From assembly GCA_002928495.1 (NCBI GenBank), contig PERF01000017.1, forward strand, positions 1-32,377: DNA of 32,377 bases. Reading direction: 5' to 3'. The notes beneath the pieces are model-generated. The model ran no database searches, had not been told where the DNA came from, and worked only from the letters and a program-made list of their open reading frames with translations. This DNA is from Methylobacter sp. (GTDB lineage: Bacteria > Pseudomonadota > Gammaproteobacteria > Methylococcales > Methylomonadaceae). Position numbers and translations under genes: made by a program. The first letter of the stretch is position 1, and each line of letters begins with the position of its first letter. Of this stretch, positions 3,283 to 25,727 are shown piece by piece.

Positions 3283-4099
3283 ATGCACCCTTTAGAAAAT
3301 CTGATCAACGATGCTTTTGAAAACCGGGCCAACCTCTCACCGACTAATGCTCCAGCCGATTTACGCGCGGCGGTTGCCGAAATCCTGAAACTTTTGGATA
3401 CCGGCAAACTTAGAGTTGCGGAAAAAATCGACGGCGACTGGGTTACCCATCAATGGCTGAAAAAAGCCGTCTTGTTATCGTTCAGAATTAACGATAACCG
3501 GCTCATGGATGGCGGCAATACTCGCTATTACGATAAAGTCGAGTGTAAATTCTCATCGTACAGCGAACAGGATTTCGCCGAAGCCGGCGTGCGCGTGGTG
3601 CCCAATGCTGTCGCCCGACACGGCTCATACATTGCACCCGGCGCCATTTTGATGCCTTCTTATGTTAATATTGGCGCTTATGTAGACAGCGGCACGATGG
3701 TCGACACCTGGGTAACCGTAGGCTCTTGCGCGCAAATCGGCAAAAATGTGCATCTGTCCGGCGGTGTCGGCATCGGCGGTGTACTTGAACCACTGCAGGC
3801 CAATCCCACCATCATCGGTGACAATTGCTTCATAGGCGCCCGCTCGGAAATTGTCGAAGGCGTTATTGTCGAAGACGGCTGCGTGATTTCCATGGGAGTT
3901 TATATTGGCCAAAGCACCAAAATTTACAACCGTATGACCGGAAACCCATTATGGCCGTATTCCTGCCGGTTCGGTCGTGGTATCGGGCAATCTACCCTCT
4001 GCCGACGGCCGCTACAGTTTGTATTGCGCCGTGATTATCAAACAAGTGGATGAAAAAACCCGCAGTAAAACCGGCATAAACGAATTATTACGTGATTAA
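3283..4099 (+). pseudogene. dapD: 2,3,4,5-tetrahydropyridine-2,6-dicarboxylate N-succinyltransferase, apparent frameshift near 3941
   Basis: Hexapeptide-repeat acyltransferase with DapD motifs up to IYNRMTG. The expected C-terminus ([50 protein letters not shown]) continues in another frame to 4099. A 2-nt deletion would explain it. Confidence 0.85.
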
Positions 4100-9712: not shown

Positions 9713-9764
9713 AACTTTCACCACGAAAAAAGGTACTTTCACCACGGAAAAAGGTACTTTCGCC
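9713..9764 (+). repeat. three-copy direct repeat, 21-bp period, core (T/A)ACTTTC(A/G)CC
   Basis: Cores begin at 9713 (AACTTTCACC), 9734 (TACTTTCACC) and 9755 (TACTTTCGCC); spacers ACGAAAAAAGG and ACGGAAAAAGG. Confidence 0.9.
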
Positions 9765-9979: not shown

Positions 9980-12465
9980 CTACAGCTTGTAACGCAATCC
10001 TACCCATCCGCCAAACGGCGCTGCCGGGCTTAAAAAACGGGGATCGGTAAAATTCTGAAATCCCGGAACTTCGTTCGCTTGCCCTAAAATTCCAAAGGTT
10101 TCGTAATTGCTGTCGAACAGGTTTTGAAAAATGGCAAAAGCGGTCAAATGGTCGGTCACTTTATAGTTTGCGTGCAGGTTCATCACAAAATAGGGATTAG
10201 TCTGACTTAGTAAGTTACCCTCATCGCCGCGTAAATATTGCCCTGAGTTAAAGTTGCCGTCGCCGCCTACCGTCAATTTTTGTGTTACCGGCACTTCCAA
10301 GCCTAATTTAAAACTATGCTGCGGTATACCGGGAATTCTGTCACCTTTTTCAACCGGAATCACGGCACTGAATTCATTGTCCGCGCCAATCGTTTCAACC
10401 CGGTTGGGGTGGCTGGGGCTGCTCACAAAAAAGTTATTCTGGAAAGTGGCGTCGACAAAACTGTAGCGGAAAAACCATCTCCAATCATCCAGAAATATGC
10501 CATCCAGACCCGCTTCCACCCCAAGCCGGCGGGTGTCGCCCACATTGGAAAAAAATCCTACGTTTGAAGTAGCCCCGCCTGTGGATTGAAAAATGATGTC
10601 GTTATTATTCAGCGTATGAAAAAAACCCAGATTCCATGATAGGGTTTTACCAAATTTTCCGCGTCCGCCCGCTTCAAAACTTTCCGCGACCACCTGCTCT
10701 AACTCCGGATCGGCCAAAAAGGCATTGGGTAGGCGACAATCGGCATCCGGATCGGCGCAAGCCAATTCCACGATGGTCGGAGCCCTGGCGGATTCGCTAT
10801 AACCGCCGTACAAACCGATTTTTTCATTGATCTTCCAGGTGATACCGGCCGAGGGATTAAACCGGCTGTAGCTGTGACTGCCGTTGAGCTCCGGCGCATT
10901 GCCCAAACTATCCTGGAGACGAATTCGGGTTGAGTTGAAACGCCCGCCTACGGTAAACGTAACCGATTCGGTTAAATCCAACGCATTATTAAAGAATCCT
11001 GACCAGCTTGTCGTTGCGCCTTTCAGGCCCGTTGCATCCTCCGGCACAAAAACACCGCTACGTGTCGTAGCACGACTTGGCAAAAGTTGGGTTATTTCAA
11101 CCTGGGAATTGAAATCAACCAAACCGCGGTTATAGCTAAAACCGGCGATGAATTGATTATCCAACCCGAATAATTTCTGCTGAAAGGTAATCTGCCCGGT
11201 TCCGCCAAAACTTTCCTGAGTCCGATTGCTGATATTATTGATCGCATTGAGGGCATCGTCTTCCTCGTCAAAACCGATCAAATTGCCGTTTTGATCTCTC
11301 AAAATAAAATTTGCCAAATCGTTTGAACCTGCCAAATCGGTAATTTCATCCGGACATTCTCCCGGATTATCGCTTTCCCGGCTGATACCATTGTCGGCCA
11401 GAAAACTGAAAAACTCGTCATTGTTGGGAAATAACGGAAACACCGGAACACCTGAATTCGCATCATACAATTCTCCCGCTTCCGAACAATTAACGAAATT
11501 GAGGCGTCCCCATTGAACGAATGGGTTTTGGTTTTCCGGTAAAACCCATTGCCCGCTAATTGCACTGCATCCGTAAGCCAGTGGGTACCTTCCAAAGTAA
11601 AAAATTTTGAATCATTTTCGGTAATATCGGGGGATGTAAACACATCATTACGGTTTTGGCGCAATAACTCGACAGGCGATGGCCCGTTTCCGGTGAGCTG
11701 AGTGTCGCCGTACAGCGCAGTAAAATCCAGCGTCGAATTTTCGCTACGCCAGCTTAAAGAACCGTAAACATTGAGCGCATCGGAAGGTGAAACATTACGA
11801 AATCCGTCTTCGCCAAAATGGCGAATATTAACAAAATACCCTAAAGTCCCGTCGTTTCCACCCGACTCCGCAGAAATCACATTGCGGCCAAAAGCGCCGC
11901 CATAGACTTCCAATTGATGGCCGGGCGCGTTAAAACCGTTTTTGGTTTGCACTGAAAGCGCGCCGCCCAGGGTATTCAACCCGAATAACGGATTGGCCCC
12001 CCCGAACAAATTGATGCTTTGAATGGCTGATTCAGGCAATAAATCCCAATTGACGGTATCGCCGAATGGGTCGTTGTAACGCACACCATTGACGTAAACG
12101 CTTAACCCTTGAGGCAATCCAAGCAATGGCGATGCGGTAAAGCCGCGGAAATTAAAATCCGGCTGTAACGGGTTATTCTGTGCCGCGTTGATGGTTACGC
12201 TGCCTAAATTTCGATTGAGATAGCTGGTTAAATCCAACACTTCCGCCCGGTCGATATCCTCGCTGGTTGCTGATTGAACATAGGCAGGCACCTTATCTTT
12301 CGGTAATCCAACGCCATGAACAGGGGTGACACTGATAACATCCAGCGTTTCCAATTCAACTTCTTTGTCTTTGGCATTACCGTCGTCAGCACAAACGGCC
12401 GGCGGGAAACCTGCCATAAAAGTTAAAATCAAACAAGGGACGGATGAAAATTTAAACATGGTCAA
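9980..12465 (-). pseudogene. TonB-dependent outer-membrane receptor, frameshifted near 11503
   Basis: N-terminal plug domain in ORF 12465-11299 and beta-barrel C-terminus in ORF 11470-9980 (ends VGLRYKL). A single missing C (GACGCCCTCAAT to GACGCCTCAAT on the coding strand) restores NGDALNFVNCSEAGELYDANSGV. Confidence 0.88.
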
Positions 12466-21749: not shown

Positions 21750-22554
21750 ATGAGTAAAAAAATGAACATCATTATCGTCGAAGACAGGATGATGGCCAGG
21801 GACGAGCTAAAATATCTGTTATCTCTGCATCCTGATGTCAACATTTTGGGTGAATTCGAAACCACTGCCGAAGCTTGGCAGCTGATTTCTTCCGGTCAGG
21901 TCGATGGCGCATTTTTGGATATTAATATTGCAACTGAACCTGGAGCCGCAGGCATGGATCTGGCTTTCCGCATTGATCGGCTACCCCTTGCCAACCCACC
22001 GTGGATCGTTTTTACAACAGGTTATGAAGAATACGCCTTGTCGGCTCATACCGTAACCTTACGGCTATCTGGTTAAGCCTTTGGATGACACCAAAGTATC
22101 GGCTGTATTGGACAAAATCCGCCGCTCCAACCAAAGGAAAGACACCAATCAGTTTGAAGAACGTATCGAAATCAAACACAAACTTGTTGACCGTGGGGAG
22201 ACTATCTGGTGTACAAAGTATCTTGCCTTGGATGATATTTTATACATCCAAACCACCAAAGGTGAAAATAGCGTTCGCGTTCAATTAACTTTCGGTGAAA
22301 TCCTCAAAGGGGTGAATTTGCCGATTAGCCGTTGGCTGTCGGAATATAACTTGCCAAACTTTATGCAAATTCATAAAAGCAGTTTGGTTAACCTTAAACA
22401 TGTGAATGGTTATAAACCGGATCCATTCAAAGTGGATTCATACAACATCACTTTTAAAGGCAATGATACCGAGTTGCCTATCGGTAAAACTTATTTTGTC
22501 CAACTTCTGGATGTTTTAAAAAACCCCGCAAGCAGCCGTTTAAAAATTCAATAA
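21750..22554 (+). pseudogene. LytTR-type response regulator (receiver plus LytTR DNA-binding domain), apparent frameshift near 22058
   Basis: Receiver IIIVEDRMMARDELKYLLSLHPDV...FLDINIA...IVFTTGYEEYA; YGYLVKPLDDTKV continues in another frame into a LytTR-like domain (DDILYIQTTKGENSVRV...FMQIHKSSLVNLKHVNGY...LPIGKTYF). Confidence 0.85.
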
Positions 22555-22680: not shown

Positions 22681-22732
22681 TACTTTCACCCCGAAAAAAC
22701 CTACTTTCACCCCGAAAACAGGTACTTTCACC
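22681..22732 (+). repeat. three-copy direct repeat TACTTTCACC, exact 21-bp period
   Basis: Identical 10-bp cores start at 22681, 22702 and 22723; spacers CCGAAAAAACC and CCGAAAACAGG. Confidence 0.93.
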
Positions 22733-22952: not shown

Positions 22953-23669
22953 ATGAAAAATCTGGGCTTTATACAAAAACAAGCACTGGCGATAATAGGT
23001 GGTTTGGCGTTATTGCTGAACGCTAGTGCAGCAATCAGTTCACCTATAACTGAAGCATTTGCTGATATTGATATCAGCTCATTAAGCGTAAGAGCGTTCG
23101 GCAGCAGCCGTGGCGCAGCGGTACCAACTTATACTTCCACTGTTGTCAATTCCAAAAGAAGTTTGGATGAAAACGGCGCTTTTACTAGCGATGCCGACAA
23201 GGGTGCCAGTGGTATTTTTGCCACCACTCAAGGCGATGACATTGGCGACGGTTCTGCAACTGCTGAACGTATTTACCGTTTTGTAGTTTCCGGCAACGGT
23301 TTCTTATCTATTGCTGCCGACTACTTTCTAAGTAATTTATTTGGTGTAGACAGCAAACCTTTGTTGGATAGCTCTGCTTCTGCTCTGGCAAGACTGACTT
23401 TGAGCCTGCCAGGTTCAAACACAGTGCTTGACAGTTTTGAAGCGTCAATTTCCTCACCGGAGACACCTGACGATTCAGGTATTCTACAAGTCGGCACCCA
23501 AGTTTTCGACGGCGACATTCTGTTGTTAACCGCTTTCGTTTCCGTGACAGCAGCAAATGCTCTGAACGGCAGTACCGATCCGTCATTAGTCCCTGTACCT
23601 GCAGCAGTGTGGTTATTTGGAACAGCTCTTATCGGTCTAACCGGTATCGGCCGCAAACAAAAAGCATAA
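22953..23669 (+). CDS. PEP-CTERM sorting-domain protein (exosortase substrate)
   Basis: N-terminal signal peptide; C-terminus VPVPAAVWLFGTALIGLTGIGRKQKA matches the PEP-CTERM signal; RBS TAGGAG upstream. Confidence 0.9.
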   Translation: MKNLGFIQKQALAIIGGLALLLNASAAISSPITEAFADIDISSLSVRAFGSSRGAAVPTYTSTVVNSKRSLDENGAFTSDADKGASGIFATTQGDDIGDGSATAERIYRFVVSGNGFLSIAADYFLSNLFGVDSKPLLDSSASALARLTLSLPGSNTVLDSFEASISSPETPDDSGILQVGTQVFDGDILLLTAFVSVTAANALNGSTDPSLVPVPAAVWLFGTALIGLTGIGRKQKA

Positions 23670-24000: not shown

Positions 24001-25341
24001 ATGGATTCTTTTGACAATACACTTTTACGCCACTGGCTAGAGCAAAGTGTGCAATTACTACAACGGTTTTCCGTGGTTGTAGTTGCATTTTTTGCTTTAA
24101 TCAGAGTTGAATGGTTAAGGCGCATTTTAAGAGAAATCGATTTGCGCTGGCACTATCGCATCTACACAGTCTGCCTATTTGCTTTTCTTGCCGTGTTGGG
24201 CTCGCACAACGGCGTGTCAACAAGCCTAGATGAACCGCTGTCAATTGTAGGCACAAGCCAAGAACTTGGTGCAATCAACAGGACGTTACCTGTTATAAGC
24301 TTTAGAGATACGATTATTTTGACTAGCGGTCTAATTGGTGGCCCGCTGGTAGGCGCAGGGGTTGGTTTTTTAGCTGGTCTTGAAAGCTATTTACAGGCTG
24401 GCAATGCGGGCCTCATTATTGGGTTGAGCAGCTTCATTTTAGGTATCTACGCAGGTTGCATAAAACGCTATCAATCTAAATGGATTGTCAATGAAAAAGG
24501 CGTTCTGATTGTCGGATTGACAGGCGCTTTTTTACAGTTTCTGATTATCCTTTTGCTGGCAAAACCTTTAACTAGCGCATGGTTATCAGCCTCGGAAATG
24601 GTTTTACCGGTCGGCTTGGTTAATAGTTTGGGTTGTGTACTGTTTTTTTGGATTATGCGGGATCTTGACCGCGAGCGCCTGGAAAAGGAAGCCCACGAAG
24701 CGCATTTATTGGTTTTACAAGCGGAGTTGAGAACTTTTAGGGCGCAAGTTGACCCTCATTTTTTAAACAATACCTTAAACGATCTTAACTCACTTATCCG
24801 GCGCAATCCCGACAAGGCCCGCGAATATATCATTAAACTGGCGGACTTTTTTAAATATACCCGCGAGTTCTCACTTTTGAATTCCATCACGTTGAATCAG
24901 GAACTGGCTCAGCTTAAACGTTTTCTTGATCTACAGCGCTTGGGCTTAGATGACAAGCTGCAGGAAAATTACGAAATTCAAGAGGAATTACTGGAATGCC
25001 AAATTTTACCCGGTTGCCTGCTAGCTTTAGTTGAAAACACATTAAAACACGGCTTTAAAGGCCGCCCTGCGCCCTACCGGCTAAAAATTTCAGCCAAAGA
25101 AAACGGGATTTATCTTGTTTTGCAAGTTACCGATAACGGCTGCGGTATTCCAAATGAATTAGTTTCTAGCCTCGGAAAACAACCGGTAAAATCGCAAAGC
25201 CGGGGTGGCGGCGTGGCTTTATACCATCTTGTCCAAAGTTTGCAATTAGTCTTTGGCGAACGGGCTAAATTAAGTTTTGAAAGTATTATCGAGCAATACA
25301 CCGTTGCAACATTAACACAGCCTAAGTGGATTTCACCATGA
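24001..25341 (+). CDS. LytS/YehU-like sensor histidine kinase (His_kinase family)
   Basis: Multiple TM helices, then RAQVDPHFLNNTLNDLNSLIRRNPDKAREYIIKLADFFKYTREFS and an HATPase region (VENTLKHGFKG, VTDNGCGIPNE). Confidence 0.9.
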   Translation: MDSFDNTLLRHWLEQSVQLLQRFSVVVVAFFALIRVEWLRRILREIDLRWHYRIYTVCLFAFLAVLGSHNGVSTSLDEPLSIVGTSQELGAINRTLPVISFRDTIILTSGLIGGPLVGAGVGFLAGLESYLQAGNAGLIIGLSSFILGIYAGCIKRYQSKWIVNEKGVLIVGLTGAFLQFLIILLLAKPLTSAWLSASEMVLPVGLVNSLGCVLFFWIMRDLDRERLEKEAHEAHLLVLQAELRTFRAQVDPHFLNNTLNDLNSLIRRNPDKAREYIIKLADFFKYTREFSLLNSITLNQELAQLKRFLDLQRLGLDDKLQENYEIQEELLECQILPGCLLALVENTLKHGFKGRPAPYRLKISAKENGIYLVLQVTDNGCGIPNELVSSLGKQPVKSQSRGGGVALYHLVQSLQLVFGERAKLSFESIIEQYTVATLTQPKWISP

Positions 25342-25727
25342 AAACGATTAATGTCGTCATTGTTGAAGATCGTCCCATGGCTAGAGATGAGCTGAAATAC
25401 CTGCTTTCCCTGCATGCGGACATCAATGTTGTTGGAGAATTTGAAAATACGGTATCGGCTTGGCCATTAATCGCTTCCGGTCGTATCGATGGCGTTTTTC
25501 TTGATATAAACATTGCCACAGAGTCGGATACCGCGGGATTGGATCTTGCTTACCGTATAGACCGATTGCCGCTGGCAAACCGCCCTTGGATCGTCTTCAC
25601 CACGGGTTATGATGAGTACGAAGCTAAAACCAAACAAATTAAGCATTTCGGCTATCTGGTTAAACCGCTTGATGAATACAAAATTCTGCCGATATTAAAT
25701 AAAGTCAGGCAAATCCAGCACGCTTAA
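25338..25727 (+). CDS. receiver-only response regulator paralogous to the 21750 regulator
   Basis: VIVEDRPMARDELKYLLSLHADINVVGEF...FLDINIATES...IVFTTGYDEYE...HFGYLVKPLDEY; ends without a LytTR domain; ATGA overlap with the kinase stop. Confidence 0.88.
   Translation: MKTINVVIVEDRPMARDELKYLLSLHADINVVGEFENTVSAWPLIASGRIDGVFLDINIATESDTAGLDLAYRIDRLPLANRPWIVFTTGYDEYEAKTKQIKHFGYLVKPLDEYKILPILNKVRQIQHA

Follow-up and report, generated by a model that had tools for sequence, protein, structure and literature searches.

A 21-bp-period direct-repeat array in Methylobacter sp. as a predicted LytTR operator upstream of PEP-CTERM genes

What is known of PEP-CTERM regulons comes mainly from PrsK/PrsR and sigma-54. 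LytTR-type operators consist of repeats of 9–11 nt that are 11–13 nt apart, and the site of YpdB in the Escherichia coli yhjX promoter is GGCATTTCAT-N11-GGCATTTCAT (PMC4847170), in agreement with the site and the 21-bp geometry given in the preliminary description of the DNA examined here. A LytTR system of E. coli controls a cstA-like gene (PMC5552118), the residues of BtsS that contact pyruvate are Arg72 and Arg99 (PMC10653868), and in Desulfovibrio vulgaris cstA is controlled by a LytTR-type regulator (PMC3333781). When the literature was searched, no report was found that joins LytTR regulators with PEP-CTERM proteins, nor any that joins LytTR regulators with a methanotroph.

The stretch of Methylobacter sp. 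DNA analysed, here called the window, is 32,377 nt long and belongs to a 2.67-Mb draft genome that is 77% complete and prone to indels. It contains a triple direct repeat, in which cores of 10 nt are separated by spacers of 11 nt, giving a period of 21 bp (Table 1) and thus the repeat geometry of a LytTR-type operator. The two spacers, CCGAAAAAACC and CCGAAAACAGG, both include CCGAAAA and are thus not free. Three identical cores at exactly 21-bp spacing, between a LytTR ORF ending at 22554 and a PEP-CTERM ORF starting at 22953, had been claimed in the preliminary description, and both the repeats, which are far above chance, and their location were confirmed. The LytTR ORF ends 127 bp before the array. 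With all periods from 11 to 59 examined, the window has no other exact triple 10-mer, and none at period 21 arose in 100 windows simulated with a Markov model. Allowing up to one mismatch to TACTTTCACC, the window has 8 matches (1.65 expected), a number that was reached in 0 of 100 shuffles.

Table 1. Features of the window and array-bearing PEP-CTERM genes on other contigs of the draft genome
Feature	Position or contig	Strand	Last core to start codon	Remarks
Second triple array	9713..9764	+		AACTTTCACC/TACTTTCACC/TACTTTCGCC; intergenic, without a PEP-CTERM gene downstream
Receiver domain of LytTR response regulator RR1	21750..22076	+		frame breaks near 22060-22080
LytTR DNA-binding domain of RR1	22081..22554	+		sole match to PF04397 in the draft
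Triple direct repeat, proposed LytTR operator	22681..22732	+		TACTTTCACC at 22681, 22702 and 22723
VPLPA-type PEP-CTERM surface protein, proposed target	22953..23669	+	220 bp	238 aa
LytS-type histidine kinase	24001..25341	+		5TM-5TMR_LYT, His_kinase, HATPase_c
Second response regulator RR2	25326..25727	+		receiver domain only
Array-bearing PEP-CTERM gene	C40		117 bp	choice-of-anchor L protein
Array-bearing PEP-CTERM gene	C33		145 bp	
Array-bearing PEP-CTERM gene	C30		125 bp	
Array-bearing PEP-CTERM gene	C89		132 bp	756-aa protein

The second array in the window is bordered by the start of a helicase gene on one side and by the 3' end of a TonB-receptor gene on the other. Neither this array nor the conserved CGAAAA of the spacers had been noted in the preliminary description. 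It is 166 bp before the helicase gene, which is on the opposite strand; it may be left over from a target since lost, or may act on the helicase gene. Both window arrays are direct rather than inverted repeats. Scans for sigma-70 promoters and terminators around them revealed nothing clear, and no match was returned when the window was compared with Rfam or when viral contigs were scanned for the array pattern.

A genome-wide scan, one of the checks proposed at the outset, located arrays at six places in the draft and no comparable array within any gene. Five of the six are upstream of PEP-CTERM genes of the VPLPA type, 117–220 bp away, and all five point at the gene. The binomial probability of five out of six arrays preceding such genes by chance is about 1e-10, assuming about 19 VPLPA-like candidates (a permissive list) among about 2600 genes. 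The product of the gene at 22953 is a VPLPA-CTERM protein that scores over the cut-off of TIGR03370, with the PEP-like motif, transmembrane helix and basic tail of an exosortase substrate at its C-terminus. A profile built from the six arrays scores them at 40–60 bits, the next place in the genome at 16 bits and, among the matches listed, nothing above 22 bits in the family's 150 other genomes. At least nine other VPLPA-type genes, for which the upstream DNA is readable in whole or in part, have no array. As no shared sequence was detected when the flanks beyond the arrays in this genome were compared, we conclude that the arrays are not a copied element.

The regulator gene RR1 is split over two frames, as the preliminary description had implied in referring to a repaired regulator. 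As other genes in the draft are split likewise, namely dapD (3283-4090 in the window, near 3950), the TonB-receptor gene (9980-12465), cstA on contig C150 and the PEP-CTERM gene on C33, the break in RR1 is probably a sequencing indel. At 77% completeness, the draft may lack a further LytTR gene. The window includes the components of a two-component system, with a 5TM-5TMR_LYT sensor, His_kinase and HATPase domains and a REC-LytTR regulator, and the regulator is intact in relatives. No GAF domain was found by Pfam in the kinase, and the cut-off of the BtsR equivalog NF008677 (246 bits) was not reached by the window regulator (55 and 79 bits) or by the intact regulator of the relative G001 (96 bits). 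As the kinase is without GAF and the regulators fall far below the BtsR cut-off, we have not filed the system as BtsSR or YpdAB. The kinases of ten relatives share two arginines 27 residues apart, a pair likened to Arg72 and Arg99 of BtsS by spacing alone. Arg102 of the window kinase is the invariant member of the pair, but residue 129, an arginine in the ten relatives, is a serine (AGC), and the ligand here may therefore differ. A receiver-only gene follows the kinase gene in the window and also in G018. Kinases accompanied by receiver-only or duplicated parts recur (L088:8401-9693, L092:7778-11120 and the window), and G009 has two kinases.

The kinase is present in 12 of 151 genomes of the family, this one and 11 of the 150 others, and a full-length LytTR regulator follows it in nearly all of the loci examined. 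Phylogenetic footprinting, which had also been suggested, revealed diverged arrays with a 21-bp period and the same design (TTYACC...CGAAAA) flanking the orthologous LytS-kinase/LytTR operon in four other genera, and the linkage to LytTR thus extends over five genera counting this one. The arrays of G001 (ATTCACC/ATTTCACCCCGAAAA/ATTGACC) and G058 (TTTTACCCCAGAAAA/ATTTCAC/GTTCACC) share the arrangement of the window, in that they directly follow the regulator gene. In G141, G079, G018, G035 and G009 the array is upstream of the kinase gene and oriented away from it. In G011, G073 and G078 no strong array was detected at the kinase locus. Scanning the relatives with the exact pattern of this species was uninformative, because their cores differ. 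When a model trained solely on the arrays of this genome was used, the kinase locus of G035 ranked first and that of G001 second among the matches in those genomes. A motif-free comparison of eight intergenic stretches from these loci with themselves found lag 21 to be the strongest of lags 12–31. As the one model was built from this genome only and the other test used no motif, circularity is avoided. In several genera the LytS-LytTR operon has a recurring neighbour gene (L085:8308-9036, L087:4711-6156, L090:4825-5784); the N-termini are similar and two have a glycine-rich C-terminus.

A combined profile was then run on the 12 genomes with the kinase and, as controls, on 12 others from the family that lack it. 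No site above 18.8 bits was found in the controls, and seven of the other 11 kinase genomes have sites outside the training set that exceed this score. The genes behind these sites, and behind one that is slightly weaker, encode the pyruvate symporter CstA in G035, G058 and G141 and a dicarboxylate symporter of the DctA type in G009, G018 and G035. The weaker site, at 18.1 bits, is that of the DctA-type gene in G035, and in G141 a small gene separates the site from cstA. Others encode secreted trypsin-like proteins, a Band_7 protein and a DUF898-like protein. In G035 a Band_7 (flotillin-like) gene on contig C351 has an array on each side (L198:11-61 and 2180-2229). In the genome studied here, the upstream DNA examined for cstA (C150) and for two SDF-family genes (C101, C46) includes no array.

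From the arrays at five PEP-CTERM genes and at orthologous loci, we consider it very probable that the array at 22681-22732 serves as an operator for the LytS/LytTR two-component system next to it, in agreement with the multi-site LytTR operator for the PEP-CTERM gene that had been proposed. It might instead be a genuine operator of a PEP-CTERM regulon that is bound by some other transcription factor, the LytTR gene being adjacent by coincidence. The broken frame of RR1, and the fact that LytTR binding is deduced from sequence, would be compatible with this, but in four other genera the LytS-LytTR operon is accompanied by arrays built in the same way, the 12 genomes that lack the kinase have no such array above 18.8 bits and cstA, a target of known LytTR systems, is among the predicted targets in relatives. 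We regard another factor as unlikely. An origin of the repeats as a minisatellite, or as remains of the ends of an IS21-type mobile element, is the least probable of the explanations considered. Multiple repeats are carried by IS21-type ends, and unrelated 21-bp minisatellites with TACTTTCACC cores occur in Treponema and Pyrinomonadaceae drafts (L060:4118-4460; L050, L051, L063). However, a search of this genome for IstB returned none over the cut-off, the arrays are without common flanks, their orientation and distance with respect to the PEP-CTERM genes are consistent and they are conserved at orthologous loci in other genera. Such an origin was rejected on the basis of the pattern scan of the genome contigs, the IstB search and the flank comparison.

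There is very little probability that the array serves only to autoregulate the regulator/kinase locus, with the PEP-CTERM gene as a bystander. The arrays directly upstream of the kinase gene in the five relatives named above are in keeping with autoregulation, but in this genome four more PEP-CTERM genes, located on other contigs, also have an array, and the sole LytTR gene found in the draft is that of the window. It is just as improbable that the array is an unusual form of the known PEP-CTERM promoter element, a PrsR enhancer plus sigma-54 promoter, which resembles it in being upstream of PEP-CTERM genes (PMC1569441). Between the array and the start codon of the five array-bearing genes there is no convincing -24(GG)/-12(GC) element, and in relatives the arrays are found upstream of transporter genes and at LytTR loci.

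If the array is a LytTR operator, each 10-bp core would be occupied by a single LytTR domain, the domains lying two turns apart on one face of the helix, and the three copies would load up to three regulator molecules in a row, cooperatively. The kinase would sense a ligand, probably a small carboxylate, and the phosphorylated regulator would fill the array and activate the gene at which it points, activation being favoured here over repression. The targets would be at least five PEP-CTERM surface proteins in this species, with cstA, dctA and genes for secreted proteins among those in relatives. Autoregulation of the kinase/regulator locus, also raised in the preliminary description, may occur, but the array here is downstream of the regulator gene, and the kinase-side arrays of relatives point away from the kinase gene. 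Direct binding, activation and a carboxylate ligand are what we infer from these patterns.

A carboxylate-sensing LytS/LytTR circuit may have been rewired here, such that cstA and dctA lost the operator, at least five genes for predicted exosortase-anchored proteins gained it and one of the two conserved arginines in the ligand pocket of the kinase became Ser129. We put this forward tentatively, as possible but somewhat short of an even chance. If it is true, the surface coat of the cell would be coupled to extracellular metabolites through a pathway that involves neither PrsK/PrsR nor sigma-54. The predicted LytTR operator before five PEP-CTERM genes would represent a second control route, with the regulator and the sites named, and the arrays of relatives supply predicted binding sites for LytTR regulators, with transporter genes named as targets. 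The operator would also provide a clear example of how a regulon turns over inside a single bacterial family.

By analogy, the array is taken to work like the operator of YpdB or BtsR. As in YpdA/YpdB-yhjX (PMC4847170), there is a 21-bp direct repeat upstream of the target, a LytS kinase and a REC-LytTR regulator, and the proven YpdB half-site GGCATTTCAT is one base apart from the half-site GGCATTTCAC of relatives. Unlike it, the window has three full cores, which differ from those of YpdB by one to several bases, and while the single target of YpdB in E. coli is a transporter, the proposed targets in this genome are at least five surface proteins. The system resembles BtsS/BtsR-btsT/cstA (PMC5552118, PMC10653868) in its LytS/LytTR pair, in the CstA-family transporter predicted as a target in relatives and in the arginine pair 27 residues apart in the kinases of relatives, a match in spacing (PMC10653868). 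It differs in that the window kinase is without a Pfam GAF domain and has serine in place of the second arginine, the core sequence is different and the regulators score below the BtsR cut-off. DVU0596 of D. vulgaris (PMC3333781) is likewise a LytR-type regulator that adjoins its own kinase and has cstA genes as targets, but its site is not described as a 21-bp array, and the PEP-CTERM targets in that organism belong to DVUA0057 (PMC3333781). With the PrsK/PrsR sigma-54 element (PMC1569441) the arrays share single-gene PEP-CTERM operons and a common cis element in a large upstream region. However, that system consists of an enhancer plus a -24/-12 element and an activator of the Fis/NtrC type, whereas here the PEP-CTERM genes are preceded by a 21-bp-period array and the predicted regulator is of the LytTR type.
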